Source of the DNA: an uncultured bacterium | GTDB taxonomy: Bacteria; CAIJMQ01 | Assembly: GCA_903821905.1 (NCBI GenBank) | Contig: CAIJMQ010000060.1 | Location: forward strand, 1-19,090 | Reading direction: 5' to 3' | Length of the DNA stretch: 19,090 bases | Shown: in pieces, positions 299 through 16,248 of the stretch | Layout: the number at the start of each line of letters is the position of its first letter | Numbering within the stretch: the first letter of the stretch is position 1 | Made by a program: the position numbers and the translations under genes | Notes under the pieces: model-generated | Told to the model about the DNA's origin: nothing | The model's database searches: none | The model's input: the letters and a program-made list of their open reading frames with translations, nothing else

Positions 299-302
299 AA
301 TT
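295..302. other. Abrupt composition junction, probable chimera point
   Basis: Left of about 298 the sequence is GC-rich and codes on the minus strand. Right of it the sequence is AT-rich and codes on the plus strand. Both reading frames are cut in mid-domain at the same position, and no repeat, target-site duplication or transposon end is visible. Confidence 0.7.
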
Positions 303-2298: not shown

Positions 2299-3395
2299 AA
2301 CTTGATAGAGAGAACGTTATTAAGATACTAAATAAGAATTTTGGTTTCAGCATAGTTGATAATCCTGTGGCTGGCGAAGTTATTAAAGTGTCAGCCTTAG
2401 ATGCTTATCTTTATTCTTCTATTACAGGACATCCGTACCTTTGTAATCCTTCAGGAGGCTTTTCTCCAAATGGCTTAATGCAGGTTTTTAATCAAGCCAA
2501 CTCCTACAATTTAGTTTCTGGCATGTTTGACAGGGCGGGGTTTTTCAAATATACCCCCTTATTGTTGTCCCGAGACTACCCTTTTATAAAAGATACTGAA
2601 AAATATATTATTCCTTTGGAATATGAAAAACATTCAGAATACGAATCAAAAAGGAAAACACTATTTGAAAAGCTCAAAAAAGAGGGATTTGATCCAGCAA
2701 ATTTTATAATCTGCACTATAAAGAAAAGCACGTCTGGATACGGCATGGAACCTTTTTGTGAGTATGTTACAAGCGAATATTTCAGACGACGGGGTTATCT
2801 TACCGAGACACAGATTCCATTTTATTATAATGGTGGAACTCCTGATTTTGCTGCATATGATTTCCCAGAGGTTTTAAGTATTTTAAGAAAGGATGGGCTA
2901 ATTTCATCTGGTGCCACGTTAATAGAATTGTCGACCTTTAGGTTATTTAGAACCAGCAAGTCAAAAACCCTTGGAAGTAAAGAAACGGAAGCAATTGTAG
3001 GCGAGGCAAAAACCAGCTCGATGGAGGCAATAAAACAAATAAAAAAGTATCTCGGGAAGAAGATTTTTAATAGAGCTTATGAAATTATACCTCATAAAGG
3101 CAAGCCTGAAATTATCTGTGGCTTAATAACATTTAACGATGCTGGGGAGATTTTAGTCTTTGAAGGTAAAGAAAAACCTTTGGTGGATAAAAAGATACAG
3201 GCGGATTATTTTGACTGGTTGAGCAATTACTTAAAATATTTCCTATTAGCTAATCTCGATAATTCTGAGCTTAATGATTTTTATAAAAGAAAAACAGGCA
3301 AAGAATTTCCAACAGGTATAAGCAATCTCTTATCTTTTGTAAATGCCTTGGAATATCAGGAAATCATTGAGGAAATTCTAACCCTTGTAGGATAA
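2295..3395 (+). CDS. Probable restriction endonuclease, PD-(D/E)XK fold (RM operon gene 2)
   Basis: The start is GTG at 2295, overlapping the methylase stop (GTGA), with GGGAGATT just upstream. The 366-residue product has MEPFCEYVTSEYFRRRGY (151-168), a helix with a conserved acidic residue. It is followed by an amphipathic strand, GGTPDFAAYDF (PD at 183-184) and, about 50 residues later, IVGEAKTSS (E237, K239). Acidic helix, PD, then E-x-K is the active-site layout of PD-(D/E)XK nucleases, with the E-x-K spaced further from PD than usual. Position between two methylase genes supports a role as cleavage subunit. No homologue is recognised by name. The fold call is from motifs only. Confidence 0.65.
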   Translation: MKLDRENVIKILNKNFGFSIVDNPVAGEVIKVSALDAYLYSSITGHPYLCNPSGGFSPNGLMQVFNQANSYNLVSGMFDRAGFFKYTPLLLSRDYPFIKDTEKYIIPLEYEKHSEYESKRKTLFEKLKKEGFDPANFIICTIKKSTSGYGMEPFCEYVTSEYFRRRGYLTETQIPFYYNGGTPDFAAYDFPEVLSILRKDGLISSGATLIELSTFRLFRTSKSKTLGSKETEAIVGEAKTSSMEAIKQIKKYLGKKIFNRAYEIIPHKGKPEIICGLITFNDAGEILVFEGKEKPLVDKKIQADYFDWLSNYLKYFLLANLDNSELNDFYKRKTGKEFPTGISNLLSFVNALEYQEIIEEILTLVG

Positions 3396-3396
3396 A

Positions 3397-4422
3397 ATGG
3401 CTTTTAAATCAGATTACATAATTAAACAGGAACTTAATTCTATCGGCGAAGTCGGGAATTTGAAATTAAGAATCTTTCCTGGCTCAAGCAGGGAAGACCA
3501 GATTCATTGGGTTAATGGCGGATTATGTTTTGGGAAAACAGATTTGCTTTACGGTTCAAACGACGCGGTGTGGTATCTTGAACAGCAATGGAGAGATCCT
3601 TTAACAAATAGAGAATCTGTCGCAAAGCCAGTTATTGCAGTTGAGGGAACTCTTGCATTAGAGCGTGGTTCAAGCGGGAATGCCCAATATCAGAGATTTT
3701 TCCATGCTTTGGGTGCGGTTTTGTCAGGTGTTATTGGGATATATTATCTAAGGGAAGGCAAGGATTCTCTAAGATATGACATGCCTATGGCTGCACTTAA
3801 TGCAGGAGAAATGCATAATTGTGATTATTTCATTACAACAGCTTTAGATGATGTGAGAGAGATCGTTGAGACAGTCGGGAATCATGGGGTATCATCTACA
3901 GAATACCGCAATTTAGCAAATAGAATTAAGAATCAAATGCGACAATATTTTACTGATGCATTAAACAGAATTCATAATGGCAATATTAATGATTATTTTA
4001 AGCATAGGTCAATAATCAAGCTGTCGAATGGCACAAATATCAAATATCTGGCAGGAAATTACAGAAATTTTACAGAGAGCAGCCAAAGGGGAGGCCATGT
4101 TATTCTGGGCGAATTTTTACTGGCAAAATATTTTCTTAAAGAGAAATTCTATTTCCTTTTACCAAGACTGACCCATAGCGACATTGAGCGGTTAGATAAT
4201 TCTGACAAGAAAGAGTGGAAGGTTATTAGAGCTGATGAGTTTGGAGAGGTTATAACTATGGATGAGATGGATGGTATTCCTGAGCGAATAAAAAGAGAAA
4301 TACTGGAACTTAAAAATACGCCTTTAGGTGGACCTACTTGCTCTGAAGCCAAGGTCAAGTGGAATAGGCTAATTAATGAGCTTAAAGGATTAATAGAAAG
4401 AGGAACGGTTAGGATAAGATAA
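3397..4422 (+). CDS. Unknown protein in RM operon, candidate second endonuclease subunit (gene 3)
   Basis: A 341-residue protein beginning one base after the previous stop and ending one base before the next start, so it is part of one polycistron. No membrane segment or signal peptide is seen. The N-terminal half has alternating strands with KTDLLYGSNDAVWYLEQQ (48-64), then KPVIAVEGTLALERGSSGN (77-95) and a helix QYQRFFHALGAVLSG (97-111). An acidic strand followed by V-x-V-E-G-T and a helix resembles a PD-(D/E)XK core in which the usual lysine is replaced, but this is weak. It could be a second subunit of a heterodimeric endonuclease, a specificity factor or a regulator. I do not recognise the family. 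Confidence 0.5.
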   Translation: MAFKSDYIIKQELNSIGEVGNLKLRIFPGSSREDQIHWVNGGLCFGKTDLLYGSNDAVWYLEQQWRDPLTNRESVAKPVIAVEGTLALERGSSGNAQYQRFFHALGAVLSGVIGIYYLREGKDSLRYDMPMAALNAGEMHNCDYFITTALDDVREIVETVGNHGVSSTEYRNLANRIKNQMRQYFTDALNRIHNGNINDYFKHRSIIKLSNGTNIKYLAGNYRNFTESSQRGGHVILGEFLLAKYFLKEKFYFLLPRLTHSDIERLDNSDKKEWKVIRADEFGEVITMDEMDGIPERIKREILELKNTPLGGPTCSEAKVKWNRLINELKGLIERGTVRIR

Positions 4423-4423
4423 C

Positions 4424-5326
4424 ATGGAAAAGAGAAAAATTAAACCAGAAGAAAGGCAAACAAAGGGATGGGGGGATTTAGTCCCTGAAATAAGTCCAAA
4501 GAAAAGCAAGTATGCCGGGAAAGTTCATCCCAAAAATAAGCTCAATAATCTAACCGGTAAGGAATGGACACTTTTTACCAAAAGCTGGTTTCTTTTTAAT
4601 GCTCTGCATTCTGATTTAAAGGAAGAACGAGCAGTTACTAAAGACACTGCTACGCATCCAGCCACTTTTTCTCCTACCATGATAAGCGAGTTCATAAGAT
4701 TCTTTACGAAAGAAGGACAGACTGTTTTGGATCCCTTTGCAGGGATAGGAAGCACTTTAGTTGCATGTGATAGGACTGACAGGAAAGGTATCGGGATAGA
4801 ATTAAATAAAAAATATGCCAAGATAGCAAAAATGAGAACAAAGCAAAAAGTTATAATTGACGACGCGCGAAATATATCAAAAATAAATCTGCCCCAGATT
4901 GATTACAGCATAACCTCTCCACCTTATTGGAACATTCTGCATAGAAGCACAGGTGATTTCAAGGAGAGGAGAGAAAAGAATAACTATGATATGAAATATT
5001 CAGAGGAACAAGCAGATTTAGGCAACATCGAAGATTATGAACAGTTCATTGATGAATTATTTAAAATTTACAAGCAGATTTACACTATCCTGAAGAATAA
5101 GGGATATATCACTGTCATTATTAAGAATGTCAAGAAACAAGGAAAACTTTATCCTTTGGCTTGGGATTTAGCAAAAAAGCTTGGTGAATTATATGTATTA
5201 AAAGATGAAAAAATATGGATTCAAGATAAAGTTAGATTAGCACCTTATGGATATCCTTATGCTTGGGTTAGCAATATAATTCATCATTATTGCCTTATTT
5301 TTCAGAAAGACGAACATCGTTCTTAA
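4424..5326 (+). CDS. DNA methyltransferase with SPPY motif (RM operon gene 4)
   Basis: A 300-residue amino-methyltransferase. HPATFSPTMISEFIRFF (78-94) leads into motif I, VLDPFAGIGST (101-111), then GIGIELN with the SAM-ribose acidic residue. The catalytic motif is SITSPPYWNIL (SPPY at 165-168). TSPPYW with the HP-x-F element is common in N4-cytosine methylases and in some N6-adenine enzymes, so the target base is uncertain. It differs from the first methylase in size, motif and domain layout, which suggests that the two modify different strands or bases of one asymmetric site. It is the last gene of the operon, one base after gene 3, and a candidate terminator follows at 5361-5397. Confidence 0.82.
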   Translation: MEKRKIKPEERQTKGWGDLVPEISPKKSKYAGKVHPKNKLNNLTGKEWTLFTKSWFLFNALHSDLKEERAVTKDTATHPATFSPTMISEFIRFFTKEGQTVLDPFAGIGSTLVACDRTDRKGIGIELNKKYAKIAKMRTKQKVIIDDARNISKINLPQIDYSITSPPYWNILHRSTGDFKERREKNNYDMKYSEEQADLGNIEDYEQFIDELFKIYKQIYTILKNKGYITVIIKNVKKQGKLYPLAWDLAKKLGELYVLKDEKIWIQDKVRLAPYGYPYAWVSNIIHHYCLIFQKDEHRS

Positions 5327-5360
5327 CTCTCATCCATTATAAAATATTTCTGTTAAAAAT

Positions 5361-5397
5361 AAAGTTCACTTTACATAGGAAGTGCGAACTTTTCCAT
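5361..5397 (+). terminator. Candidate terminator after RM operon
   Basis: AAAGTTC-ACTT and AAGT-GCGAACTTT form an imperfect hairpin (a two-base bulge on the 3' arm) around an eight-base loop, with a T-containing tail. It lies 35 bases after the last methylase stop. The stem is AT-rich and weak. Confidence 0.4.
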
Positions 5398-5539
5398 TTT
5401 ATCTTCTAATTCCTATCTGATTCATTCCGCGTCGTTAAATCTATTTCTTTAAGATTCCTCTATTTCTACAATCTACTAATTTTTTTCTCCGTTTTTCTTC
5501 TATTTCTCATTTCCAGAATCCCACTCTCTAAACCAACGT

Positions 5540-5554
5540 CGGAAAGCTTAAATA
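5540..5554 (+). promoter_or_regulatory. Archaeal-type BRE + TATA promoter of recombinase operon
   Basis: CGGAAAG is followed directly by CTTAAATA, a good match to an archaeal TFB-recognition element plus TATA box. The predicted transcription start is around 5577-5580, about 33 bases before the recombinase ATG. Confidence 0.6.
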
Positions 5555-5592
5555 CATCTATTTCGTTTTTATTATAGCAGTTCACCTTTCCT

Positions 5593-5616
5593 ATGAAACA
5601 TGAACACACAAAATGA
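5593..5616 (+). CDS. Possible leader peptide MKHEHTK overlapping the recombinase start
   Basis: ATG at 5593 opens seven codons whose TGA stop overlaps the recombinase ATG (ATGA). The recombinase has no visible Shine-Dalgarno site, so re-initiation from this minicistron could set its translation. This could be chance; no independent support. Confidence 0.2.
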   Translation: MKHEHTK

Positions 5617-6227
5617 CATTTACATGGATATTAGACGAAAGTAAGTACCTGAAAACAGAAGAAGTGAGGAAACTCATGGATACTTGCCGGAGATTAACGC
5701 AGAAACACAGGAGTTATTTAGCAGTTAGGAATTGTTTCATGGTTGAGCTTGGCTTGTTTACAGGCTTGAGAGTGAAGGAAATGGCTAACCTGAATTGCGG
5801 TGATCTTTTAATCGGAAACGAGCAATCATCATTAATAGTAAGCAAAGGCAAAGGAGACAAGAAAAGAATTGTAAAACTCAACAGTGAATTCAGGGAAAAA
5901 TGTTTAAAGTTTCTCAAATACAAGCAAAAAATAAATCAAAGCATATCTGAAGACTCTCCCCTGCTCTGTTCTCTTTCAGGCAGAAGATTAACCAAAAGAG
6001 CACTGCAAAAATCATTCAAGAAATGTATGAAAATCGCAGGATTGCCTGAGCATTACGGAATTCACAGTTTGAGGCACACTTACGGCTCTCATCTATACAA
6101 AGCAAGCAATCACAATCTCAGATTAGTACAGGAGCAATTAGGCCATTCTTCTATAAGAACAACAGAAGTTTACGCAAGCCTGATGGCAACAGATGTGAAT
6201 GAAGCACTTGAAAAGCTTTACAAGTAA
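5613..6227 (+). CDS. Short tyrosine recombinase/integrase (catalytic domain only)
   Basis: All catalytic residues of the phage-integrase/Xer family are visible in 204 residues: R53 in FTGLRVKEM, the beta-hairpin lysine in SKGKGDKKR (about K80), H151 and R154 in HSLRHTYGSH, H178 in QLGHSS, and nucleophile Y187 in TTEVYASL. The usual N-terminal core-binding domain of about 100 residues is reduced to a helix of about 30 residues. It is therefore roughly two thirds of XerC/D length, and no frameshifted remnant is seen upstream. It probably integrates or excises the surrounding element, or resolves dimers. It heads an operon with the zinc-finger gene 11 bases downstream. Whether it is active without the missing domain is unknown. 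Confidence 0.88.
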   Translation: MTFTWILDESKYLKTEEVRKLMDTCRRLTQKHRSYLAVRNCFMVELGLFTGLRVKEMANLNCGDLLIGNEQSSLIVSKGKGDKKRIVKLNSEFREKCLKFLKYKQKINQSISEDSPLLCSLSGRRLTKRALQKSFKKCMKIAGLPEHYGIHSLRHTYGSHLYKASNHNLRLVQEQLGHSSIRTTEVYASLMATDVNEALEKLYK

Positions 6228-6238
6228 GGAGGTGCAAC

Positions 6239-6445
6239 ATGTTTGAGTATTGTGGCTGGTGCAACAAGCATATCAATCTTCTGAATTTTCAGAAAGTTGC
6301 ATTAAGGATAAACGGAAATATTGAAAAGAAAAGATTATGGTTCTGTGCGCCAAGATGTCTTCTTGAATTTAACAGGCTTTATGAGGGAAATAATTTCAAC
6401 ATGCGACTTGACGTTCCAAAACCATTGAAAGCAGGTAAATGGTGA
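6239..6445 (+). CDS. Small zinc-finger protein
   Basis: A 68-residue protein starting six bases after a strong GGAGGTG site placed at the recombinase stop. CGWC near the N-terminus and WFCAPRCLLEF in the middle give a CxxC...CxxxC pattern with an aromatic residue before the second knuckle, similar to TRASH/MYM-like treble-clef fingers. Charged C-terminus, no membrane segment. Coupled between recombinase and propeller gene, it may be a recombination accessory or a regulator. Specific function not recognised. Confidence 0.65.
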   Translation: MFEYCGWCNKHINLLNFQKVALRINGNIEKKRLWFCAPRCLLEFNRLYEGNNFNMRLDVPKPLKAGKW

Positions 6446-6455
6446 AACTAATAAA

Positions 6456-6465
6456 AAAGGAGGGA
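6456..6465 (+). promoter_or_regulatory. Shine-Dalgarno site deciding start of the propeller gene
   Basis: AAAAGGAGGG lies four to five bases before ATG 6469. An ATG at 6439 is also in frame, but it would place this site inside the coding region and spoil the signal peptide. Confidence 0.7.
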
Positions 6466-6468
6466 AAG

Positions 6469-8436
6469 ATGAAAAAGCTGTTAAGTGTTGCAGTTTGTTT
6501 TTTCATTCTTTCTGTATTCGTCAGAAATGCAGAAAGCAAAATAGCCTTTTCTTCTGACAGGGACGGAGATTATGAAATTTACGTAATGGATGACGACGGA
6601 ACGGGTTTAATAAAACTGACTAATAATGCAACATATGATGATATATGGCCTGTTTTTTCTCCTGACGGAACTAAAATTGCTTTTTCATCCAATAGAAATA
6701 GTAATTATGAGATTTACGTTATGAATAGTGATGGGAGCAGTCAGACAAGATTGACTTTTGATAATGCAGAAGACTGGGCTTCTGACTGGTGCGGTAATGT
6801 TATTTTTTTTACTTCCAATAGAACTGGGACTTACGAAGTATATGTCATGTATAGCGATGGAAGTAATCAGGAAAGAATAACTTTTAATTGGCCCTTTGAG
6901 GATGCAGATCCTAGTTGTTATGGCAACAAGATTGCTTATACTTCTAATATTTCAGGTAGTCTTCCACCGGGCGAGGCGAGTTATAACATCCGCATCGAGG
7001 AAATTGATGGATCATCGTACCAATTAACAAATAGCGGGGACAACGGTTATGCCAGCTTTTCTCCTGACGGAACTAAAATCGCTTTTTCATCTAATGCCCA
7101 TGGAGGTTCTTCGGAAATATACACCATGAACAGTGATTATGGAGATGGCAAGATGAGATTGACCTATTTGAACGCATGCAGTAAGAGAGCTCACTGGTCT
7201 CCCGATGGTTTTCAAATAGTTTTTGAATCTGACAGTAATGGTAATTCCGAGATTTACGTTATGAATTCCAGTAACGGAAACAACATGGTCAATCTAACAA
7301 ATAATAGTGCAGATGACATAACACCTTGTTGGTTAGATAGTGGAGGCAATGACGAGGAAGGCGATTCTTACGAACCTGATGATACTTATTCTCAAGCTAA
7401 TAACATCTCTATAAATGGAACCGTTCAGACTCATACCATAGAACCAGCCGGTGATATAGATTGGGTGAAATTTTATGCAACTTCTGGCAAAAGTTACACT
7501 ATAAAAACTCTTAATTTAGGTAGTGGTTGTAATACCTACATTTACCTTTATTCTACTAACGGGACTACTTTAATTAACGAAGATCACGATAGTGGAGAAG
7601 GATATGCATCAATAATTGAATGGACTTGCACCATCTCCGGGACCTATTATGTGAAAATTAGACACGATAACCCTGCGCTCACAGGTTCATACGATATTTC
7701 GGTGACCGAATCAGGTGGTGGTGTAATTGATGATGGAAATGACTCTTTTGGCGAGGCACAAGATATTGACATTGGCTCAACGATTGAAGATTCTATTGAT
7801 ACAGAAGGTGACAGTGATTATTTCAAGTTCACGACTTCTGATTATGGTCTGGTAACTGCCAAACTCACATTTGGAGCATCGTCAAATCTTGATCCTGACA
7901 TTTATCTCTATAACTCGTCTCAAACCTTAATCGCACAGTCAGCTGGTCATAATCCTGCTATTATTTCCGAAGAAATTGATGAATACCTTGATGCAGGAAC
8001 ATATTACATTAAAGTGCAGGGTTATAGCGGAACAGGGGCTTACGATCTCAAGGTTAATCTTACAATCTATGAACCACCATATTATTGTGGCGATGGTGTT
8101 TGTGATGCAGGCGAAAGTTGCTCTTCTTGCCCTGGAGATTGTGGTAGCTGTGGAGATAGTGGAGATGGAGGAGGAGGTGGTGGCGGAGGTGGAGGCGGCG
8201 GTTGTTTCATCGCAACTGCTTGTTATGGCACATCATCAGCCAAAGAGGTTATGACATTAAGGCAGTTTAGGGATGACTGCTTACTCACCAATCCGGTTGG
8301 AAAAGTTTTCGTAAACACTTATTATAAAATCTCTCCACCGATAGCTAATTTCATAAGAGAACATCCTGTATTGAAGACAATAACAAGAAAATTATTGAAA
8401 CCTTTAATCTGGATAGCAGAGAAACACGAAAATTAG
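6469..8436 (+). CDS. Secreted TolB-type beta-propeller protein with PPC domains and CFI-box C-terminus
   Basis: A 655-residue exported protein. MKKLLSVAVCFFILSVFVRNAES is a signal peptide. Residues 24 to about 288 hold about six PD40 blades (SPDGTKIAFSSN...EIYVMNSDG). Two pre-peptidase C-terminal (PPC-like) beta domains follow (about 298-414 and 420-535). Next comes a Cys-rich knot, CGDGVCDAGESC...CPGDCGSCG (540-562), then a run of 12 glycines, and CFIATACYG starting at about 579, followed by LRQFRDDCLLTNPVGK and SPPIANFIREHP. That ending matches the CFI-box C-terminal domain of surface proteins in archaea and bacteria. The family propeller usually binds proteins or glycans, and the C-terminus probably anchors or matures the protein. 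It follows the zinc-finger gene by 23 bases, so it is co-transcribed with the recombinase, which is unusual. Confidence 0.85.
   Translation: MKKLLSVAVCFFILSVFVRNAESKIAFSSDRDGDYEIYVMDDDGTGLIKLTNNATYDDIWPVFSPDGTKIAFSSNRNSNYEIYVMNSDGSSQTRLTFDNAEDWASDWCGNVIFFTSNRTGTYEVYVMYSDGSNQERITFNWPFEDADPSCYGNKIAYTSNISGSLPPGEASYNIRIEEIDGSSYQLTNSGDNGYASFSPDGTKIAFSSNAHGGSSEIYTMNSDYGDGKMRLTYLNACSKRAHWSPDGFQIVFESDSNGNSEIYVMNSSNGNNMVNLTNNSADDITPCWLDSGGNDEEGDSYEPDDTYSQANNISINGTVQTHTIEPAGDIDWVKFYATSGKSYTIKTLNLGSGCNTYIYLYSTNGTTLINEDHDSGEGYASIIEWTCTISGTYYVKIRHDNPALTGSYDISVTESGGGVIDDGNDSFGEAQDIDIGSTIEDSIDTEGDSDYFKFTTSDYGLVTAKLTFGASSNLDPDIYLYNSSQTLIAQSAGHNPAIISEEIDEYLDAGTYYIKVQGYSGTGAYDLKVNLTIYEPPYYCGDGVCDAGESCSSCPGDCGSCGDSGDGGGGGGGGGGGGCFIATACYGTSSAKEVMTLRQFRDDCLLTNPVGKVFVNTYYKISPPIANFIREHPVLKTITRKLLKPLIWIAEKHEN
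6655..6693 (+). repeat. Intragenic repeat, propeller blade copy 1
   Basis: A 39-base segment encoding FSPDGTKIAFSSN, repeated at 7057-7095 with two mismatches. An 18-base segment at 6709-6726 is also repeated exactly at 7249-7266. Such nucleotide identity points to recent blade duplication or gene conversion. Confidence 0.75.
7057..7095 (+). repeat. Intragenic repeat, propeller blade copy 2
   Basis: Second copy of the 39-base segment at 6655-6693, differing only at two third-codon positions. Confidence 0.75.
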
Positions 8437-8450
8437 CAAGCTGAAATCTC

Positions 8451-8490
8451 GGGGATATGGGATTAATTTTCTATATCCCCTATTTTTTTA
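8451..8490 (+). terminator. Hairpin terminator after propeller gene
   Basis: GGGGATAT (8451-8458) pairs perfectly with ATATCCCC (8473-8480) around a 14-base loop and is followed by TATTTTTTTA. It lies 15 bases after the stop codon and closes the recombinase operon. Confidence 0.8.
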
Positions 8491-8498
8491 TCCCCATT

Positions 8499-8529
8499 AA
8501 CATAGTTTGCTTACAAATAAGTTAAATAC
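8499..8529 (+). promoter_or_regulatory. Extended TATA promoter, copy 1 of a shared element
   Basis: AACATAGTTTGCTTACAAA (8499-8517), then four bases and TTAAATACC. The TTAA lies 26 bases before ATG 8548, as for a leaderless archaeal transcript. The same element recurs at 9125-9151 and 11709-11737. Confidence 0.65.
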
Positions 8530-8547
8530 CTTTTGCATTTCGCCTTA

Positions 8548-9126
8548 ATGAGAGAGGTGAATTGGCTTTATGCGCCATGCGTAGTTATTATTCTGAAATA
8601 TCTCATTATCACGCCAAGAACTCCCATGCAGTTGAGAATGCTGACAAAAATCCCCGGAAATTACGCAAACCTAATCCTGAAAAAACTTCAGAAGCAAGAA
8701 ATCGTCAACTGCCTTACTCCCTATGAAAAAATAGGGAAAGTGTTCTGTATAAATCCTATAAGTAAAGATTTAGTCGAGAAAATCTTGAAATATTCAGGAT
8801 ACAATCTCAAAGCATATTCTCTGCCGGAATTAAACTGGAAAGCATACGGAAAATTAAACTGCAAAACCTGCAAGCAGATAAAAAAGATATTTCACACAGC
8901 AGTCAGCTTGAGAAATCTCGGCATAGCAATAACACAGCAGAATATCAAAAATAAACTGAAAGATGCAGAAGGGATGACTAATATTAACAGGAGTGACATC
9001 TACAGAGCATTAAGGCAGTTAAAGAAATTGGAACTTATGATTCCAATAAAGAAAAAACATGAATATCTCGAATATGAATTAACAGAAGACGCCCTTGATT
9101 TGAATGAATTTATCAACTCCCACTAA
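8548..9126 (+). CDS. Double winged-helix DNA-binding protein, probable regulator
   Basis: Start ATG 8548 is chosen because the TATA box lies about 26 bases upstream and no Shine-Dalgarno is present; a TTG at 8533 is in frame but falls within the promoter-to-start distance. The 192-residue product has a first winged helix at about residues 10-75 (ILKYLIITPRTPMQLRML, GNYANLILKKLQKQEIV, then a KIGKVFCINP wing). A second is at about 110-180 (TQQNIKNKL, RSDIYRALRQLKKLELM, EYLEYELTEDA). Such tandem wHTH proteins are common in archaea and often act as regulators. Cys105 and Cys108 form a lone CxxC between the domains. It is the obvious candidate to bind the element shared by the three nearby promoters, but that is inference. 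Confidence 0.7.
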   Translation: MREVNWLYAPCVVIILKYLIITPRTPMQLRMLTKIPGNYANLILKKLQKQEIVNCLTPYEKIGKVFCINPISKDLVEKILKYSGYNLKAYSLPELNWKAYGKLNCKTCKQIKKIFHTAVSLRNLGIAITQQNIKNKLKDAEGMTNINRSDIYRALRQLKKLELMIPIKKKHEYLEYELTEDALDLNEFINSH

Positions 9127-9151
9127 TATAGTCTGCTTACAAACTTTTTAA
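9125..9151 (+). promoter_or_regulatory. Extended TATA promoter, copy 2
   Basis: AATATAGTCTGCTTACAAA (9125-9143) starts within the stop codon of the wHTH gene, followed by four bases and TTAAGCC. The TTAA is 28 bases before ATG 9176, consistent with a leaderless transcript. Confidence 0.65.
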
Positions 9152-9175
9152 GCCATCGCCTACTACTCTAAAGTA

Positions 9176-9763
9176 ATGGAATATTCAATTTACAAACATA
9201 GGTTTAAAGAAAGTCCGATGGAGATTGGCTACTGGAATCAATCTCTCATAGAGCCGGGCAACTTTTATAATACAGGCTTTTCAGAAACTCTCGAGAAAAT
9301 AGTCTCAAAAGAAAATAATAAAATCCCAGACAACTTTCCGGAAAGAATAATTTTAGACAAAGGCAAAACCATGAAAGCCTCTATAAAAGCTCTCTTAAAC
9401 GAAATCCTCTTAAGAAAAAAGCTGAATTCAGAATTAGTAAGCAAGATTGACTCTGACTTGTGCGACACCCATTCCAACCTTGAAGGAATACTCACCCTTA
9501 CTGAAAGGGATTATGAGGGAAGTCTCACCTCAAACCTTAACAGGAGAAAAACACAGCTTGAATCCCAGTCGATTGATCTTGAAAAAGAAAAAAGGCAGGA
9601 ATACGTGACGTGCTGGCGTGACATGATGTTTCTAAGAAAATATCTTTTATCAGCATTAAAAGATTACTGGAACGCGAACAGCAGTAAATCATTCCTGAAC
9701 ATTGAAAATGATAAATATAGTAGAGGATACGTGCAGGAAACTGAAGCCTATAATTGGAAATAA
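9176..9763 (+). CDS. Helical/coiled-coil protein of unknown function, upstream of HerA-like ATPase
   Basis: A 195-residue soluble protein, first gene after its own TATA promoter. The middle and C-terminal parts are strongly helical and charged (KASIKALLNEILLRKKLNSE; LESQSIDLEKEKRQEYVTCW; FLRKYLLSALKDYW), suggesting a helical bundle or coiled coil. No catalytic motif, signal peptide or membrane segment is visible. Its last 56 bases overlap the start of the ATPase gene in another frame, so translation of the two is probably coupled and the product may be a partner of that ATPase. Family not recognised. Confidence 0.65.
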   Translation: MEYSIYKHRFKESPMEIGYWNQSLIEPGNFYNTGFSETLEKIVSKENNKIPDNFPERIILDKGKTMKASIKALLNEILLRKKLNSELVSKIDSDLCDTHSNLEGILTLTERDYEGSLTSNLNRRKTQLESQSIDLEKEKRQEYVTCWRDMMFLRKYLLSALKDYWNANSSKSFLNIENDKYSRGYVQETEAYNWK

Positions 9764-11711
9764 GGCTGACGAGTTATGGTATTCATGGCTTGCCTCTGAC
9801 TGGAAAGAAAGGAAAGATCTTGAAATCCAGATAGAGATGATTGCAGAGAAAGTTTTAAAGCATGGACCTTTGCAGGAAAAAGTTATTCTTCTGCCTCCAC
9901 CGTCAGAACAGCAAGCAGAAGGAGATTTCGTTCTTGGCAAAGTTATTTACCGCAACAACAAGCTTTTTCCTCTGTATCTGAAAGAAGAGGATTTCATAAA
10001 GCAGATAGGAATATTCAGCATTACAGGAGCAGGAAAAACCAATTTAGGACTGCTTCTTGCATTGCAGTTGTTAAAAAAAGATATTCCTTTCATGGTTATT
10101 GACTGGAAAAGGCAGTGGCGCTCAATGTTAAGCCTGAATAATTTCCATGAACTGAAAAAAGTGCAGGTTTACACGATTGGCAGGGATATTATTCCTTTTC
10201 TGTGGAATCCATTCAGGCCTCCTAAAAACATAGATTACAAGACTTGGATTTCAGTAATAGTCGAATGCCTTGAGAAAAGCCATCTCGGAGGACTGGGTGT
10301 GGGAGATTTTTTCATAAGAATATATGAAAAGCTGTTTGCAGAACTAAAAGACGAGAATTTTTATCCCAATTTCCATGACGGCATGAGAGAACTTGAAAAG
10401 ATAAAAGTCGGAGGCAGGGAATTCCTCTGGTGGCAGTCAACAAAAAGAATATTCAAAAGCTTCACCTTCGGGCCTTCTTCAAAATCATTTAACGCGAGAA
10501 ATCCTGTAAAACTTGAAGAGCTTCTTGAAAAGCCAGTCATATTTGAGCTTGACCAGGAAATGCCAAAACCATTAAGGATATTTTTCATGGAATTAATAAT
10601 CAGATTCATTCACCTTTACAGATTATCGCAGGGAGAAAGCGAAAATCTCAGACACGTTCTGTTTCTTGAGGAAATCCAAAATCTTTTCCAGAAAATAAAA
10701 TACGAGAAAGACAGGATAGACAGCCTTGAAAATGTTTACAGGGAGATAAGGAGTTTCGGGCAGGGATTGGTAAGCATTACACAACACCCTTCCCTATTGC
10801 CTACTTACATCTTAGGCAACTCAAGAACATTAGTATTTCTTGCATTACAGCATCAGGAAGACATTGAAGCAGCAAGAAAATCAATATTCCTGCCAAGAGA
10901 TGATGAAATTTATCTTAACATGCTCAAGACAGGACAGGGAATAGTCAAGATAATGGAGAGAATTAATCCCTGTCTTGTCCAGTTTCTTTACGTGCCTGTT
11001 GAAAAAGGCAAAATAACTGACGAATGGCTGAGAATAAATACCCCCGGGTATTTACAGCAGTCCAGCAACGATAAAAGCACAGGACACCCGGGGTATTTAC
11101 AGGGGGATAATATAGAACCCTCAAAAAATAAATACCCCCCTGATAACGCAAATATAGGCCGGCTTCTTGCTGACGTTTATCTTTATCCTTTGTCAGGCAT
11201 AACCCAGAGATACAAGAGGCTCAGTTTCAACGCAAGACACGGAAATGAATTCAAAAATCTGCTCATTTCAGAGGGATTGATTCACTCAAAAAAGATAATT
11301 ACCAATTCAGGATGGATAACCTTGTTTGAATTAACACCCAAAGGCAGGATTATGTTAAGAGATTTGGGATATGAAGCTAAGGAAGACAAGGAAAGCATTG
11401 AGCATAAATTCTGGAAATTCAGAATAACTGAATATTACAAAAACGAGGGATTAGACGTTCTGGTTGAAGAGCATATCAACGGCGAGCCCGACATAATTGT
11501 AATGAATAAAAACAATAAAACAGCCATTGAAATAGAAACAGGAAACTCTGATTTTATAAAGAACATAGAAAGAGATTTAAAACTCTTTGATAATGTTATC
11601 TGCATTGCAACAAGCAAGGAAGCTGAAAAACAAATAAAAAATGGATTAAAAGACAATCTGCACGAAAAACTAACCATAACTTCTGCTTTATTATTCCCCT
11701 TTTCCAACTAA
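9708..11711 (+). CDS. HerA/FtsK-like ATPase fused to winged helix and PD-(D/E)XK-like nuclease domain
   Basis: A 667-residue protein. The N-terminal part (1-90) is helical. Walker A is GIFSITGAGKTN (101-112), a strand FMVIDWKRQW follows (128-137), Walker B is VLFLEEIQN (317-325), and SITQHPSLLP (356-365) fits the motif after Walker B in HerA/VirB4-type DNA pumps. A low-complexity linker with two PGYLQ copies (446-480) leads to a winged helix (about 487-557). The C-terminal domain (about 562-665) has GEPDIIVMN and TAIEIETGNSD (D595, E608, E610), a PD-(D/E)XK-type core with the lysine replaced. Such ATPase-wHTH-nuclease fusions occur on archaeal integrated elements and plasmids and may pump or process DNA. 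The ATG at 9708 is preferred over TTG 9702; no clear ribosome site, overlaps the upstream gene. Confidence 0.8.
   Translation: MINIVEDTCRKLKPIIGNKADELWYSWLASDWKERKDLEIQIEMIAEKVLKHGPLQEKVILLPPPSEQQAEGDFVLGKVIYRNNKLFPLYLKEEDFIKQIGIFSITGAGKTNLGLLLALQLLKKDIPFMVIDWKRQWRSMLSLNNFHELKKVQVYTIGRDIIPFLWNPFRPPKNIDYKTWISVIVECLEKSHLGGLGVGDFFIRIYEKLFAELKDENFYPNFHDGMRELEKIKVGGREFLWWQSTKRIFKSFTFGPSSKSFNARNPVKLEELLEKPVIFELDQEMPKPLRIFFMELIIRFIHLYRLSQGESENLRHVLFLEEIQNLFQKIKYEKDRIDSLENVYREIRSFGQGLVSITQHPSLLPTYILGNSRTLVFLALQHQEDIEAARKSIFLPRDDEIYLNMLKTGQGIVKIMERINPCLVQFLYVPVEKGKITDEWLRINTPGYLQQSSNDKSTGHPGYLQGDNIEPSKNKYPPDNANIGRLLADVYLYPLSGITQRYKRLSFNARHGNEFKNLLISEGLIHSKKIITNSGWITLFELTPKGRIMLRDLGYEAKEDKESIEHKFWKFRITEYYKNEGLDVLVEEHINGEPDIIVMNKNNKTAIEIETGNSDFIKNIERDLKLFDNVICIATSKEAEKQIKNGLKDNLHEKLTITSALLFPFSN
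11036..11053. repeat. Inverted repeat inside ATPase linker, copy 1
   Basis: AAATACCC, CC, GGGTATTT is an 8-base perfect inverted repeat with a two-base centre. It lies in the codons for the interdomain linker. A related segment CCCGGGGTATTTACAG is at about 11087-11102, and the inverted half AAATACCCCCCTG at 11130-11142. Confidence 0.6.
11087..11142. repeat. Second copy and inverted partner of the ATPase-linker repeat
   Basis: CCCGGGGTATTTACAG (11087-11102) repeats most of the 11042-11057 segment, and AAATACCCCC downstream (from 11130) is its inverse, giving a possible stem of about nine base pairs with a loop of about 32 bases. Both copies translate as PGYLQ. Confidence 0.5.
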
Positions 11712-12291: not shown

Positions 12292-12391
12292 GAAGGAATT
12301 TATATGCAGGGTTTGCATTAGCGAGAGAAACAATAAGTGTGAGGAATGCTGTTTGAATGAAAGGAATGAGCTATGTGGAACAAACCAGTAA
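12170..12391 (+). CDS. Small basic protein with Cys-rich tail, possible RHH-like fold
   Basis: ATG 12170 has AAAGGAGG six to seven bases upstream, the best ribosome site in this cluster. The 73-residue product has a basic strand-helix-helix section (KTTKTIYRLKRFYKKPMTEI, then TEQLIQKSL) resembling ribbon-helix-helix DNA-binding proteins. It is followed by CRVCISERNNKCEECC, a CxxC...CxxC(C) metal-binding tail. It overlaps the previous zinc-ribbon frame by 122 bases and the next gene by 19 bases. It may be a small transcription factor of the element; the RHH call is inference. Confidence 0.55.
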   Translation: MYSPALREKTTKTIYRLKRFYKKPMTEITEQLIQKSLSKVEKEFICRVCISERNNKCEECCLNERNELCGTNQ

Positions 12392-12699
12392 AAGAAGAAC
12401 TGGAAAAAATCCCGGTGTTTTATTCAACAGAAGAAATACCACTGAAAGAGAAGATGATTCAAATGCACTTCTTTCTTGGAGGGTGTGACTGGTACGTTGC
12501 TGAATATGACACTGAAAACCAGATATTCTTTGGCTTTGCGATACTGAACGATGATTATGACAATGCTGAATGGGGATATTTCAGCATGCAGGAACTGTGC
12601 GAGTTAAAGATTGAATGCTTTGAAATTGACAGGGATTTATATTTCACGCCGAAAAAAGCAATTGAAATCAAAAAGATAAGGAAAGCAGAAAAATGGTAA
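12373..12699 (+). CDS. DUF2958-like protein
   Basis: A 108-residue protein with a weak AAAGGA site before ATG 12373 and a 19-base overlap with the previous gene. IPVFYSTEEIPLKEK, then FFLGGCDWYVAEYDTENQIFFGF, then AEWGYFSMQEL and FEIDRDLYFTP, follow in order the pattern of DUF2958 proteins (W-Y-E-D, FFG, E-GYFS--EL, ERD). This family is frequent on plasmids, integrative elements and phages; its biochemical role is not known. Its place directly before the E1 gene suggests that it is part of the same transcript as the Ubl cassette. Confidence 0.72.
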   Translation: MWNKPVKEELEKIPVFYSTEEIPLKEKMIQMHFFLGGCDWYVAEYDTENQIFFGFAILNDDYDNAEWGYFSMQELCELKIECFEIDRDLYFTPKKAIEIKKIRKAEKW

Positions 12700-12736: not shown

Positions 12737-13390
12737 ATGGATAAAAAATTCTCAAGACAAACGGATTTAATAGACATGAAAAGATTAGAGCAAACGGCAG
12801 TAACAATCATAGGAGCAGGAAGCATTGGCTCTTTTGCAACTTATGCCTTAGCCAAAATGGGCGTTAAGGACATTACCGTTTATGACGATGACATTGTAGA
12901 ACAGCACAATTTCTCTAACCAGATATACAGAATAGAAGACATAAACAAAAAGAAAGTCACATGCCTCAAGAACAGAATAAAGACTGACACAGAAGTAAAG
13001 ATAAAAGCCATCGAAGACAAATATGAAAACCAGAAACTCAAAGGCATTGTGCTAAGCGCGGTTGATTCAATGGAAACAAGAGAAATCATCTGGAAAAACT
13101 GCAGGCTCAATTATGACGTTGAGCTTTTTATCGATGTGAGAGTTGGCGGACAGGTTTACAGAATATATGTAGTAAACCCAATGGACCCGGATGAGATAGA
13201 GCAATACGAGGCAACCCTTTATCCCAGTTCAGAAGTAAGTCCTCTCAAATGCACAGAAAGGAGCATTATCTTCAGCGTACTGGGTCCTGTAGCGATGGTA
13301 TGCAATGCAGTTAAGAATTACGCTAACAAAAACAATCACAGGCTGGAATTCATCTTTGACTTTGCAACGCTTTATGCCACGCCTGTCTAA
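12737..13390 (+). CDS. E1-like ubiquitin-activating enzyme (ThiF/MoeB family)
   Basis: A 217-residue adenylating enzyme that would activate the Ubl encoded next. FSRQTDL (5-11) carries the N-terminal arginine of the ThiF fold. GAGSIGS (26-32) is the nucleotide-binding loop, VYDDDIVEQHNFSNQIYR (48-65) binds ATP-Mg, and LSAVDSMETR (106-115) matches the conserved D-x4-R. CTERSIIFSVLGP (172-184) aligns with CAEAGVLGP of MoeB and supplies the probable thioester cysteine C172. The two CxxC zinc knuckles of MoeB/ThiF are absent and the protein is slightly short, so it is a minimal E1. The second arginine of the usual N-x-x-RQ is replaced (NFSNQ). It is 37 bases after the DUF2958 gene and 38 before Ubl. 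The family call is strong; activity is inferred. Confidence 0.9.
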   Translation: MDKKFSRQTDLIDMKRLEQTAVTIIGAGSIGSFATYALAKMGVKDITVYDDDIVEQHNFSNQIYRIEDINKKKVTCLKNRIKTDTEVKIKAIEDKYENQKLKGIVLSAVDSMETREIIWKNCRLNYDVELFIDVRVGGQVYRIYVVNPMDPDEIEQYEATLYPSSEVSPLKCTERSIIFSVLGPVAMVCNAVKNYANKNNHRLEFIFDFATLYATPV

Positions 13391-13416
13391 ATTATTTTTT
13401 AAAACAAAAAAGAAAG

Positions 13417-13424
13417 GAGGTGAT
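13417..13424 (+). promoter_or_regulatory. Strong Shine-Dalgarno of the Ubl gene
   Basis: GGAGGTGA is a near-perfect anti-16S match four bases before ATG 13429. The GTG inside it at 13420 is in frame but is part of the binding site, so the start is at 13429. This is the strongest ribosome site in the cassette, fitting a high need for Ubl. Confidence 0.75.
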
Positions 13425-13428
13425 AATA

Positions 13429-13647
13429 ATGCCTAATCATAAGCTAGTCAAAGTCGGCAAGCTGGGCGAGTCAGTACAGGAGTATTCTCTGACAAACGGA
13501 GAAACAGTAGCAGATCTTCTGGAAATGGCAAGCATTGAGCTGGAGAACGAGGAAGTTCAGAGAAACGGTCAGAGAGTAGAGCTTGATAGTGTGCTTGAAA
13601 ACGGAGACATCGTGATGGTTGTTCCGAAAGTCGCAGGAGCTCTATAA
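13429..13647 (+). CDS. Ubiquitin-like protein modifier (ThiS/MoaD-type beta-grasp)
   Basis: A 72-residue protein: KLVKVGKLGESVQEYSL is a beta hairpin, NGETVADLLEMASIEL the helix, and VQRNGQRVELDSVLENGDIV followed by MVVPKVAGAL the closing strands. This is the beta-grasp layout of ThiS, MoaD and bacterial Ubl proteins: N-G-x-x-V near residue 46, the L-x-x-GD turn at about 57-60, and a V-P-K/N-V end. The C-terminus is Ala-Gly-Ala-Leu, not Gly-Gly, so either two residues are trimmed, perhaps by the JAMM protein, or a non-canonical tail is used. It lies between E1 and E2, with an attenuator-like hairpin just downstream. An AT-rich TTTTTTAAAA segment upstream could be an extra promoter. Confidence 0.88.
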   Translation: MPNHKLVKVGKLGESVQEYSLTNGETVADLLEMASIELENEEVQRNGQRVELDSVLENGDIVMVVPKVAGAL

Positions 13648-13660
13648 CCAAGAGAGAGGC

Positions 13661-13701
13661 GGGGCTGTATCTGTTTTTCGGTACAGCCCTGTTTCTTTTT
13701 A
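13661..13701 (+). terminator. Hairpin + T-run between Ubl and E2 (attenuator-like)
   Basis: GGGGCTGTATC (13661-13671) pairs with GGTACAGCCCT (13680-13690) over 11 positions including two wobbles, with an eight-base loop and GTTTCTTTTT after it. The E2 ribosome site follows within a few bases. If partial, it would make E1 and Ubl more abundant than E2, JAMM and the last gene. Confidence 0.75.
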
Positions 13702-13716
13702 TAGGAGGTAAATCAT

Positions 13717-14652
13717 ATGGAAAGAGTAATTATTGAAGACAACATTTTCACAATTCCGTCTCTAAAGGCAAAACTTGAATACTTAAGCATATTCTCAGGC
13801 AAACAGATAAAAGTAACCAGCGATGTTAACAGAGTCATTTTGCCTGAGCAAATTCTCATAGCAGTTAATCCCCGTGAACAGATAGAGGATGGAATTGCAG
13901 ACGGAAAAGTGCGTTTTTTTGAATCCAATAAATTCTTAATACCCTTGATGAACGAACAGTGCATAAACAAAGTGATTAATCTCTACAAAAACAATTCACA
14001 ATTAGTAGAAAAGCAAACAAAAATCAAGGAAACAGAGGCTTTCAAAAAAGCACTGGCATTCAAATTAAAACAGGCAGTAGATTATAAGATTAATGACATA
14101 AAAGAAAACATGGAATTTACTCAGACACAACTCAGGTTATGCCAGGAAACCATCATTGAACTCAGCAAAATTTTAGAAAAGGCAAACAAAGGGCTGCAAC
14201 AGGCAAAAACCATGAAAGACACAATTGATAATGATGAAGACAGATTAAAAAGAGCAATAGAAGAAATCATGGCTCTAAAAAAGAACAATGTTTTCACAAA
14301 AATCAGCTTTAAGCTTAATGAGATTGTTGCAGAAACACCGGTGGTTTATTGTGAGCACCAAAACAAAACCTACATGCTTGGAAGATATGAAATCCATATT
14401 TCTTTAGACAGCAATGAAGTCAGAATATATAACCTTACAAAACAAGTAGAGGGATTCAATCATCCGCACGTGGATGCCCAGGGAAAACCATGTTTAGGCA
14501 CTCTCTCTGATGTGATTCCAAAATACATGGGAAGAGCAGAATTTGCAGTCATCTTAGGCGCACTTAACACTTATTTGCACAGCTATAACCCGGCCAGTCC
14601 TTACAGAAGAATCGAGCACTGGCCCAAAAGCAGGAGGAAAGTAAAAAAATGA
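13717..14652 (+). CDS. E2-like ubiquitin-conjugating enzyme with coiled-coil extension
   Basis: A 311-residue protein with AGGAGGT eight bases before its ATG. The C-terminal third has the E2/UBC layout: strand and turn YMLGRYEIHISLDSNEVRIY (219-238), then HPHV (249-252) and GKPCLGTL (256-263) with catalytic cysteine C259 ten residues after the HPx motif, as in HPN...C of eukaryotic E2s, followed by a helix AEFAVILGALNTYLHSY. Residues 1-90 look like an alpha/beta domain, and 93-190 form a long coiled coil (LVEKQTKIKETEAFKKAL ... LKRAIEEIMALKK). The extension is absent from canonical E2s and could scaffold or oligomerise. The gene overlaps the JAMM gene by ATGA. It resembles E2-like protein B of PRTRC cassettes in type, but alignment was not possible here. 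Confidence 0.82.
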   Translation: MERVIIEDNIFTIPSLKAKLEYLSIFSGKQIKVTSDVNRVILPEQILIAVNPREQIEDGIADGKVRFFESNKFLIPLMNEQCINKVINLYKNNSQLVEKQTKIKETEAFKKALAFKLKQAVDYKINDIKENMEFTQTQLRLCQETIIELSKILEKANKGLQQAKTMKDTIDNDEDRLKRAIEEIMALKKNNVFTKISFKLNEIVAETPVVYCEHQNKTYMLGRYEIHISLDSNEVRIYNLTKQVEGFNHPHVDAQGKPCLGTLSDVIPKYMGRAEFAVILGALNTYLHSYNPASPYRRIEHWPKSRRKVKK

Positions 14653-15350
14653 ATACTCTATATTTCAAACTCGATTGTTTAACAAAGTTGTCCGGATATG
14701 TAAATGCAGCAGAAGGAGAAGTAAGCGGAATGGGACTGGTTGAGAAAATCAAGGACATGTTCGTGGTTACAGAGATTTTTCTTCTGAAACAGGAATGCAG
14801 TTTCTCAACAACAGAGATTGATTCAGAGGATTTAGGAAAACTAATGCTTGAACTTGCAAGACAGGGCAAAGAGGGAAATCTTAAATTGTGGTGGCATAGT
14901 CATGGCTCAATGAATGCGTTCTGGAGTACCACAGACAACCATACTGCAAGAAACTTATCAGGAAGCAACTGGATGTTTAAAGCAGTAGTCAACAAGGAAG
15001 GCAAGATGAAAGTCTCTCTTGATGTAAGCATTCCCTTTCATCATGTGACAGATGACATTCAGGTTAGCATATATGATCCAGACACGAGCAGAATATTTGA
15101 AATCTGCAAAAAAGAGATTAAGGAAAAGGTAAAAGAGGGAAAATTATCTGATGGCAAGCAGAGAGAAATGTTTGATGATATTGAACTATGCCCTGTCTGT
15201 CACACTATTATCTTAAACGATGAAAAACAATGCCCTCAATGCGGGCATAAAATAAAGGGGGTTAGATATGAAACTCATGTTCCCGGAAAAAAGAGAAATG
15301 GAAAGCATAGAAAAAGAAAATTGTCCGCAGATATTCAAGATAGAGGATGA
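14649..15350 (+). CDS. JAMM/JAB deubiquitinase-like metallopeptidase with C-terminal zinc ribbon
   Basis: A 233-residue protein coupled to E2 by an ATGA overlap, with AGGAGG upstream. The JAMM site is complete: E24 in AEGEVSGMG, then LWWHSHGSMNAFWSTTD with H83-x-H85, S93 and D96, the Zn2+-binding HxH-x7-S-x2-D motif of Rpn11/CSN5 and prokaryotic JAB peptidases. A C-terminal CPVC (181-184) and CPQCGH (195-200) form a zinc ribbon, often used for substrate or partner binding. Its likely work is cleaving the Ubl from conjugates or trimming its AL tail. The last 83 bases overlap the next gene in another frame, where the coded residues are a basic tail (KKRNGKHRKRK). Confidence 0.9.
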   Translation: MNTLYFKLDCLTKLSGYVNAAEGEVSGMGLVEKIKDMFVVTEIFLLKQECSFSTTEIDSEDLGKLMLELARQGKEGNLKLWWHSHGSMNAFWSTTDNHTARNLSGSNWMFKAVVNKEGKMKVSLDVSIPFHHVTDDIQVSIYDPDTSRIFEICKKEIKEKVKEGKLSDGKQREMFDDIELCPVCHTIILNDEKQCPQCGHKIKGVRYETHVPGKKRNGKHRKRKLSADIQDRG

Positions 15351-16248
15351 AAACCTGAATGAGATAGAAAAAATATGCTTGGGCAACAGAACTGAAAGAA
15401 TCACCAAAGTCTATGCCATCAGCAGAACCAATGTTCCTGATTTCGCGGCAAAAATGAAAGAGATGCTTTTCCGTGAATATACAGAAGGGTTAAAAGAGAT
15501 AAAAGGAAACAGCAGAGAAGACGTTGAATTATTCAACAGCATAGCAAGGCATTTCGGACACAGGATTATCCAGATTCAGCTGAAGTTTCAAAAAGTGGCT
15601 GTTGAGTATGAAATGCTGGAAGGTGTTCAGCAGGCACTTGAAGAAAAATACGATGAGATAAAAGAAATAGTTAAGAGGCTCAATGTAGTGAAAGCTGCCA
15701 GAGAGCTGAGAAGAAGGTTCAATAACTGGAAAAGACAGTTAAAAGAATCTCCTGCATGGAATTACTGCAAAATTGAAAAGGAACAGGGAAGCAAGATAAA
15801 AGAGTTCGCTGAAGGGCATTTCAATCCTTCTATTTCTGCGATGCTGAATCCTGACACAGACTTCCAGTCTGGTTATTGCATGATAAGGCATAAATACAAG
15901 ATATCTGTTGAATTGTGGAAGTGCCAGGAGAGAGAATCTTGGTTTGTCATCTCAGTAATATCGCCTAACAAGCAGGACTGGGTTGAAGTAATTCGTTTAA
16001 GGGAGAGAATGGAAGAGATAGCCCGCCGGAATAACTTCAACGTGCTTATCGGAGGTTCAAGATATGATTACAGATGGTTTGATGCACGAATAAAGCTGGA
16101 AAGGAAAAGAGAAAAAGATGCTCTTAATATCATGGAAAAGCTAAAGCAAGCATCATTCAAAATGGCAGAAGCCTCTTATGAGATGGCAAGAAAACTCAGG
16201 GAGTGGAAACTGGAAGAGATAAGACGAGAAACAGGAGAGGACAATTAG
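15268..16248 (+). CDS. Helical protein of unknown function ending the Ubl cassette
   Basis: ATG 15268 is supported by GGGGG seven bases upstream and lies inside the JAMM gene, an 83-base overlap. The 326-residue protein has a short N-terminal region, a helical and coiled-coil part (about 95-175, VEYEMLEGVQQALEEKYDEI, LRRRFNNWKRQL), and a beta-containing middle (ISAMLNPDTDFQSGYCMIRH; KYKISVELWKCQERESWFVISVISP; VLIGGSRYDYRWFDARIKLE). It ends in a highly charged helix. No membrane segments or known catalytic motif. As the last gene of a tight operon it may be the substrate, an E3-like adaptor or a sensor. Family not recognised. Confidence 0.65.
   Translation: MKLMFPEKREMESIEKENCPQIFKIEDENLNEIEKICLGNRTERITKVYAISRTNVPDFAAKMKEMLFREYTEGLKEIKGNSREDVELFNSIARHFGHRIIQIQLKFQKVAVEYEMLEGVQQALEEKYDEIKEIVKRLNVVKAARELRRRFNNWKRQLKESPAWNYCKIEKEQGSKIKEFAEGHFNPSISAMLNPDTDFQSGYCMIRHKYKISVELWKCQERESWFVISVISPNKQDWVEVIRLRERMEEIARRNNFNVLIGGSRYDYRWFDARIKLERKREKDALNIMEKLKQASFKMAEASYEMARKLREWKLEEIRRETGEDN

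Follow-up and report, generated by a model that had tools for sequence, protein, structure and literature searches.

Ubiquitin-like modifiers (Ubls) are conjugated by an E1 enzyme, which adenylates the modifier and takes it up as a thioester, and an E2 enzyme, to which the modifier is transferred before an isopeptide bond is formed with the target. Here we analyse a cassette of this kind on the 19,090-bp contig CAIJMQ010000060.1, which is treated in its entirety as the window and belongs to a 1.3-Mb, 84% complete metagenome-assembled genome. The four core genes, encoding E1, Ubl, E2 and a JAB protease, span 12737-15350 with their active sites intact. One operon holds all the parts of a ubiquitin-like pathway in the general sense: an E1 and a UBC-fold E2, each with its cysteine, a beta-grasp modifier and a JAMM peptidase. 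We put at roughly 70% the probability that the cassette is a compact, reversible Ubl conjugation pathway, from a family borne by phages and mobile elements, that is used in conflict with hosts or rivals.

One closely comparable system is PRTRC (NCBIfam TIGR03735-03738), which we take to be the same as operon type 6d. Type 6d, as defined in PMC1779556, likewise consists of separate genes for an E1, a JAB protein, a small Gly-ended Ubl, an E2 and a helical protein, and is often carried on mobile DNA. The window shares the small, separate Ubl beside E1 and JAB, in a variant that ends GA-L. In the type 6d E2 the usual active-site His is missing and a conserved His lies downstream instead (PMC1779556), whereas in the window E2 an HPH stands upstream of the Cys; type 6d JAB proteins carry an additional N-terminal domain, whereas the window JAB domain begins at the N-terminus. 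The window proteins did not reach the curated PRTRC models (A, B, C, ThiF): E1 scored 41.9 bits against a cut-off of 144.75 and JAB 17.8 against 101.8, and E2 and Ubl gave no match. The cassette is related to PRTRC/type 6d, yet distinct. An earlier sequence-only reading of this DNA had placed it in the same way, as kin to PRTRC and not identical with it, and the shared parts together with the low model scores agree.

Bil (BilABCD), an antiphage conjugation system, is likewise encoded by four genes for Ubl, E2, E1 and JAB (PMC11354881). Its E2 carries a CEHH motif, in which the Cys is followed by Glu at +6 and His at +8 and +13 (PMC11354881); the window residues at these distances from C259 are D265, I267 and G272. 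The Bil E1 combines an inactive and an active adenylation domain and the Bil modifier two tandem Ubl domains, whereas the window E1 is a single domain of 217 aa and its Ubl a single domain of 72-75 aa. Type II CBASS (Cap2/Cap3) and 6A-MBL share the E1 adenylation domain and JAB chemistry with the window, and only about 70-95 aa of the window E1 match. In type II CBASS, Cap2 is an E1-E2 fusion encoded with a CD-NTase, whereas E1 and E2 are separate in the window; no nucleotidyltransferase was seen among the annotated window genes, nor an MBL partner. Membership of Bil and of type II CBASS was rejected on these grounds of motif, domain and fusion.

The ubiquitin operon of Caldiarchaeum subterraneum, as described in PMC5654768 and PMC6043591, contains a Ubl, an E1, an E2 and a JAMM enzyme, as does the window. 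A RING E3 belongs to the Caldiarchaeum-type operon; in the window no RING family scored above cut-off in the cassette ORFs, and the JAB bears a zinc ribbon instead. The window family is also bacterial and viral in distribution, unlike the Caldiarchaeum operon, and its host has no proteasome match. No published description of the cassette family was found in the openly licensed literature, which was the part searched.

Active sites and folds of the core proteins

Clear Shine-Dalgarno sequences precede the ATG codons at 12737 (E1), 13429 (Ubl), 13717 (E2) and 14649 (JAB). The E1 gene (12737..13390, + strand), whose start is backed by GAAAGGAG, encodes a lone ThiF/MoeB adenylation domain that matches Pfam ThiF at 4.6e-23. 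The predicted catalytic residue is C172 within KCTERS (codon 13250-13252), or C178 if numbered from 12719. In this second numbering R13, Q14, D56, D58 and C178-T179-x-R181 are invariant among the family E1s, and the Cys is preserved, as CT, CS or CG, in all family relatives compared.

The Ubl gene (13429..13647, +) probably starts at the ATG right behind AAAGGAGGTGAT; the mechanical start is GTG 13420. Its product matches Pfam ThiS at 2.5e-6, above the cut-off, and the family profile matches ubiquitin (4.5e-14) and SAMP2 (8e-9). The structural model (pLDDT 88.6) resembles MoaD, SUMO, NEDD8, ubiquitin and Caldiarchaeum ubiquitin. The C-terminus reads VPKVAGAL, with GA where GG is commoner. Family Ubl tails mostly end in GG and sometimes in GA, often with a few extra residues behind; GA-type ends also occur in loci L055, L038 and L064.

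The E2 gene (13717..14652, +) encodes a variable N-terminus, a long coiled coil (residues 80-189) and a C-terminal UBC domain (about 190-305). The active site, H249-P-H251-(x7)-C259 in HPHVDAQGKPCLG, follows the motif HPH-x7-C-L-G, with C259 (codon 14491-14493) as the predicted catalytic residue, and the spacing from HPH to Cys is identical to that of eukaryotic HPN-(x7)-C. The window E2 alone has no Pfam match, and as a single sequence it found nothing in the genome-contig, plasmid and phage collections. The family profile finds human UBE2L3 and kindred E2s at about 3e-4 with H-P-x and Cys aligned, pairing HPHiseggspClG with HPNIDEKGQVCLP-type sequence. The Cys is preserved in 26 of 27 relatives and the HPH ahead of it in 21 of 27 (window included). 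In the AlphaFold model, with pLDDT mostly over 90, the long helix (80-189) is followed by an E2-like fold. Foldseek gave no significant PDB match for the full model because the long coiled coil dominates; structural re-alignment then resolved the UBC domain, which superposes on many E2s of eukaryotes with Z scores of 6-7 and rmsd values of about 3.1-4.2 Å over 99-123 residues. These Z scores of a predicted model are modest taken alone, yet consistent with the sequence evidence. The one significant match in the viral fold library was the unnamed A0A516LW79 (1.7e-4), and 8tz0_D, from a bacterial E1-E2-Ubl complex structure, appeared only as a weak Foldseek row (E 1.7).

Several matches to the coil were set aside: rows of similar Z in the re-alignment (vimentin, cilia), the top sequence match of the E2 profile (4psl_A), which covers the coil only, and weak profile matches in G106, G217, G240, G144 and G322, which fall in the coiled-coil columns 49-171. 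Some relatives (L029, L032, L049, L050, L052, L057 and L061) have Cys-rich CxxC repeats after the UBC domain of E2, where the window has its zinc ribbon on JAB; these tails are possibly a built-in E3-like or target-binding module.

The JAB gene (14649..15350, +) encodes the exact JAMM pattern, E24...H83-S-H85-x7-S93-xx-D96 (E24...HSHGSMNAFWSTTD), and a C-terminal zinc ribbon, CPVC...CPQC. The match to Pfam Prok-JAB (4.9e-5) lies slightly under the cut-off, and the JAMM motif is retained in nearly all family members compared. The protein is predicted to process the Ubl and to deconjugate it. In L038 (3979-5584) the JAB gene is interrupted precisely at the HSH active-site motif by a stretch with a free-standing LAGLIDADG-like open reading frame (ORF), the pattern expected where an intron or intein carries a homing endonuclease.

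Since some 20-30 divergent relatives keep the active-site residues, the cassette is far beyond chance. The sequence-only reading had drawn the same outline by eye. Its five adjacent genes on one strand correspond to five plus-strand ORFs at the same positions in the ORF listing of the window, and its E1 cysteine, C172 in CTERS, is confirmed with the start at ATG 12737. The beta-grasp Ubl, the E2 C259 after HPH and the JAMM cleavage enzyme that it named are likewise supported by the matches, models and motif described above. It had counted a failure of the E2 or Ubl models to adopt UBC or beta-grasp folds as evidence against itself; since both models match these folds, that objection falls away.

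Distribution in chromosomes and phages

Apart from the window, an E2 search of 386 bacterial genomes returned four homologues, all distant; a fifth came from a profile search. On chromosomes the four-gene set is sporadic (5/385 other sampled genomes), and E1, E2, JAB and Ubl stand side by side in all five loci. With the E1 profile, more copies came to light in Methylomirabilota, Nitrospinae and one Aenigmatarchaeota contig, in Myxococcales (E1 only) and in 18 viral contigs from IMG/VR, the largest of them 183 kb long; this family count of 18 excludes more distant E1 matches. A terminase large subunit is encoded on 10 of these 18 viral contigs. In the E1 tree viral and chromosomal copies are intermixed and crAss-like E1s group with two viral copies (support 89/83); the position of the window is not settled by the tree.

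Ubl-E2-JAB-E1 is the commonest gene order, with E2-JAB-E1-Ubl and Ubl-E1-JAB-E2 as variants. The window order, E1-Ubl-E2-JAB, had been called unusual in the sequence-only reading; it does differ from the usual order of the family, but it is not unique, as viral contig L060 shares it. Beyond the core four, no neighbour gene is common to all cassettes. In L038 genes for a primase, a helicase and a DNA polymerase follow the cassette, and homologous neighbours are found in L055 and L058.

A divergent block is carried by the Crassvirales genomes DAC15, PhiCrAssBcn18, cr106_1, cr111_1 and cr126_1, by bajarodcaudo virus 1 and by Flavobacterium phage FpV4 (loci L089-L095, of which L090 is FpV4), with its genes annotated as thiamine biosynthesis protein, metalloprotease or hypothetical. 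The order is Ubl-like, a protein whose motif is YMHSH...PC(T/L)G or closely similar, JAB and E1, the same as the usual family order with the second protein as the E2-like member, and the block adjoins a DNA primase or toprim gene. Unlike the separate Ubl of the window, the Ubl-like domain sits inside a longer protein, which is not evident in the cr106_1 block. Profile comparison with the family indicates clear homology for E1 (5.8e-39) and JAB (4.7e-15). For E2 the comparison gives weak evidence of a link (hhalign probability 22%), although the H.H..C.G residues align; for Ubl it gives no significant link. A uracil-DNA glycosylase gene lies near the block.

In the single-contig genome G141 the cassette has a CRISPR-like array of 20 copies on one side and a Gabija pair, GajA/GajB (E 5e-235 and 1.5e-122), on the other; the features of this locus (L107) occupy 1969-10477 and 16435-19501, and a large protein with masked residues is encoded between array and cassette. 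In G161 an integrase-like gene lies within a few kb of the cassette, which adjoins an RtcR-type sigma-54 activator.

Probable role in conflict and alternatives

The kin of the cassette are mostly in bacterial viruses and other mobile DNA, and it therefore probably serves in phage-bacterium conflict and not in archaeal housekeeping. The Gabija and CRISPR-like, integrase-like, and recombinase and methylase contexts, the last being the DNA methylases and tyrosine recombinase upstream of the cassette in the window, likewise indicate mobile-element conflict. The sequence-only reading had seen an archaeal-type region. An archaeal origin was rejected, as a kinship search placed the host genome in the same domain as Deltaproteobacteria bacterium RBG_13_61_14 (G046) and its contigs bear genes, identified by eye, of bacterial type, among them those for ribosomal proteins and LPS; neither the archaeal nor the bacterial 16S model found a match in the host genome, so 16S gave no placement.

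Homology supports the chemistry well; the targets and role are inferred. E1 would adenylate the C-terminal Gly/Ala of the Ubl, hold the Ubl as a thioester on C172 and hand it on to E2 C259. E2 would then attach it to protein amino groups, and its coiled coil and variable N-terminal region may select targets or oligomerise. The JAMM protease would trim Ubl precursors, which in many relatives extend by a short tail beyond GG, and strip the Ubl from its targets. Phages and plasmid-like elements would be the carriers, with bacteria sometimes retaining the cassette in defence-rich loci.

Several observations weigh against this reading. The window Ubl terminates in GA-L (AGAL) and not GG, and the Aenigmatarchaeota relative L037 lacks the E2 Cys. 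Three Methylomirabilota E2-E1-Ubl sets (L033, L034 and L036) have no adjacent JAB, and the deconjugase may therefore be dispensable. Gabija is a neighbour in one case only, the Nitrospinae copies stand among ordinary chromosomal genes, and the window contig has no clear phage structural gene.

Among other roles, maintenance of a plasmid or mobile element, equivalent to that of PRTRC, is unlikely. The cassette has the parts list of type 6d, and DUF2958, integrase, RadC-like and HerA-like genes are found as neighbours; on the other hand, none of the PRTRC models is reached, no ParB-like gene was recognised and the family is present in lytic-type phage contigs. We give as little weight to a part in virion assembly or maturation, in which structural proteins would be processed or tagged as by the lambdoid Ub-like gpI and JAB-bearing gpK. 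The copies in L055, L061 and L064 are a few kb from terminase genes, but those of L038, L055, L058 and the crAss-like sets adjoin replication genes, chromosomal copies are not surrounded by virion genes, and the lambda-type clusters are without E1 and E2 (PMC1779556).

Slightly less probable again is a sulfur-carrier pathway of ThiS/ThiF type, in which a Ubl thiocarboxylate would serve the thiolation of a cofactor, nucleotide or tRNA and JAB would cleave the Ubl-product adduct, as in Mec-type cysteine synthesis. ThiF and ThiS are indeed the best named matches of E1 and Ubl; however, such pathways do not include a conserved E2 of UBC fold with the canonical Cys spacing, and a Pfam scan found no rhodanese domain in the window E1. 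Protein turnover of archaeal or eukaryote-like type, feeding a proteasome, is very improbable: the E1-Ubl-E2-JAB composition resembles that of the Caldiarchaeum operon (PMC5654768, PMC6043591), but the 84% complete host genome has no proteasome/HslV family match, no RING family scored above cut-off in the cassette ORFs and none was recognised among adjacent ORFs, and a search of six further genomes from the host phylum gave no E2.

The conflict reading can be tested directly because cultured phages (Bacteroides DAC15 and Flavobacterium FpV4) carry the related block. We suggest, tentatively and at somewhat under even odds, a wider version of it: phages with tails, crAss-like ones from the human gut among them, would carry complete, self-sufficient Ubl pathways that act on host or rival proteins during the replication phase, and bacteria would have captured them repeatedly, in some cases into defence islands. 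If so, phages are a reservoir of compact ubiquitin-type machinery. Known bacterial ubiquitin-like pathways, Bil and type II CBASS among them, are anti-phage defence systems; a full enzyme set with eukaryotic-type E2 spacing, found mainly in phages and mobile DNA, would put the weapon on both sides. The minimal Ubl-E2-JAB-E1 module also bears on how ubiquitin pathways arose and moved between replicons.

Hairpin, fifth gene and neighbouring genes

In the window the RNA between the Ubl and E2 genes forms a hairpin with a T-run (13651..13700, +; -33.3 kcal/mol, z -6.0). Across 22 loci the 80 nt 3' of the Ubl stop have a mean z of -2.7, whereas the stretches behind the remaining three genes reach -0.2 to -0.9 (p about 1e-5). 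This comparison is biased, since those other stretches often enter the next gene and the loci are not independent. About half of the 22 loci have similar strong hairpins 3' of Ubl. Strong hairpins immediately behind the gene occur in the window, L029, L048-L051, L055, L057, L058, L061, L063 and L064, which are very divergent loci, and several of them are followed by T-runs. A simple terminator scan of the window did not list the hairpin, and so the argument for a terminator is one from folding. We infer an attenuator or mRNA-stabilising element. On the simplest reading it probably ensures that more modifier is made than enzyme, and it may set Ubl dosage.

The fifth gene (15268..16248, +) encodes a 326-aa protein with no Pfam or NCBIfam match above cut-off and no relatives in the other cassette loci or viral contigs searched. 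A search of whole genomes found homologues only in G352, a member of another bacterial family than the window genome, with two copies (62-63% identical) that are both broken at contig ends and differ in their flanks. On a third G352 contig there is a fragment of E1 with 82-83% identity to that of the window; ahead of it stands a RadC-like gene and, further up, a DNA-polymerase-clamp-like gene, the two being identified by eye. A profile search found no E2 in G352, presumably because the assembly breaks there. Given these homologues and the closely similar E1 fragment, the fifth gene appears to travel with the window's branch of the family. The five-gene cassette of the sequence-only reading is accordingly narrowed to four recurrent core genes, the fifth being seen in only one other sampled genome. 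This branch-specific companion may serve as an adaptor, target or effector, which is a guess.

Directly 5' of E1, a gene for a DUF2958 protein (12373..12699, +; Pfam DUF2958 1.2e-6) has its stop 37 bp upstream of the E1 start and may be co-transcribed with it. The same arrangement is seen once more, in the Myxococcales locus L039, and annotated homologues occur on plasmids. Further upstream are a HerA/CedD-like ATPase gene (9702..11711, +; DUF87 7.5e-7, CedD 3.2e-21, below cut-off), whose product possibly carries a C-terminal nuclease-like domain, and the tyrosine recombinase/integrase gene (5613..6227, +; Pfam Phage_integrase 4.8e-30). A HerA-linked context had been offered as a trait of the system; the other cassette loci compared do not share the HerA-like gene, and the trait does not extend to the family.

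At 640-5326 two N6/N4 DNA methylase genes surround genes for two proteins (366 and 341 aa) without Pfam matches, which looks like an uncharacterised restriction-modification operon. The first 420 nt of the window (1-420) have a GC content of 60%, compared with 36% elsewhere, and an ORF like a gliding-motility ABC auxiliary protein; this segment is possibly a chimeric join or a recent insert.

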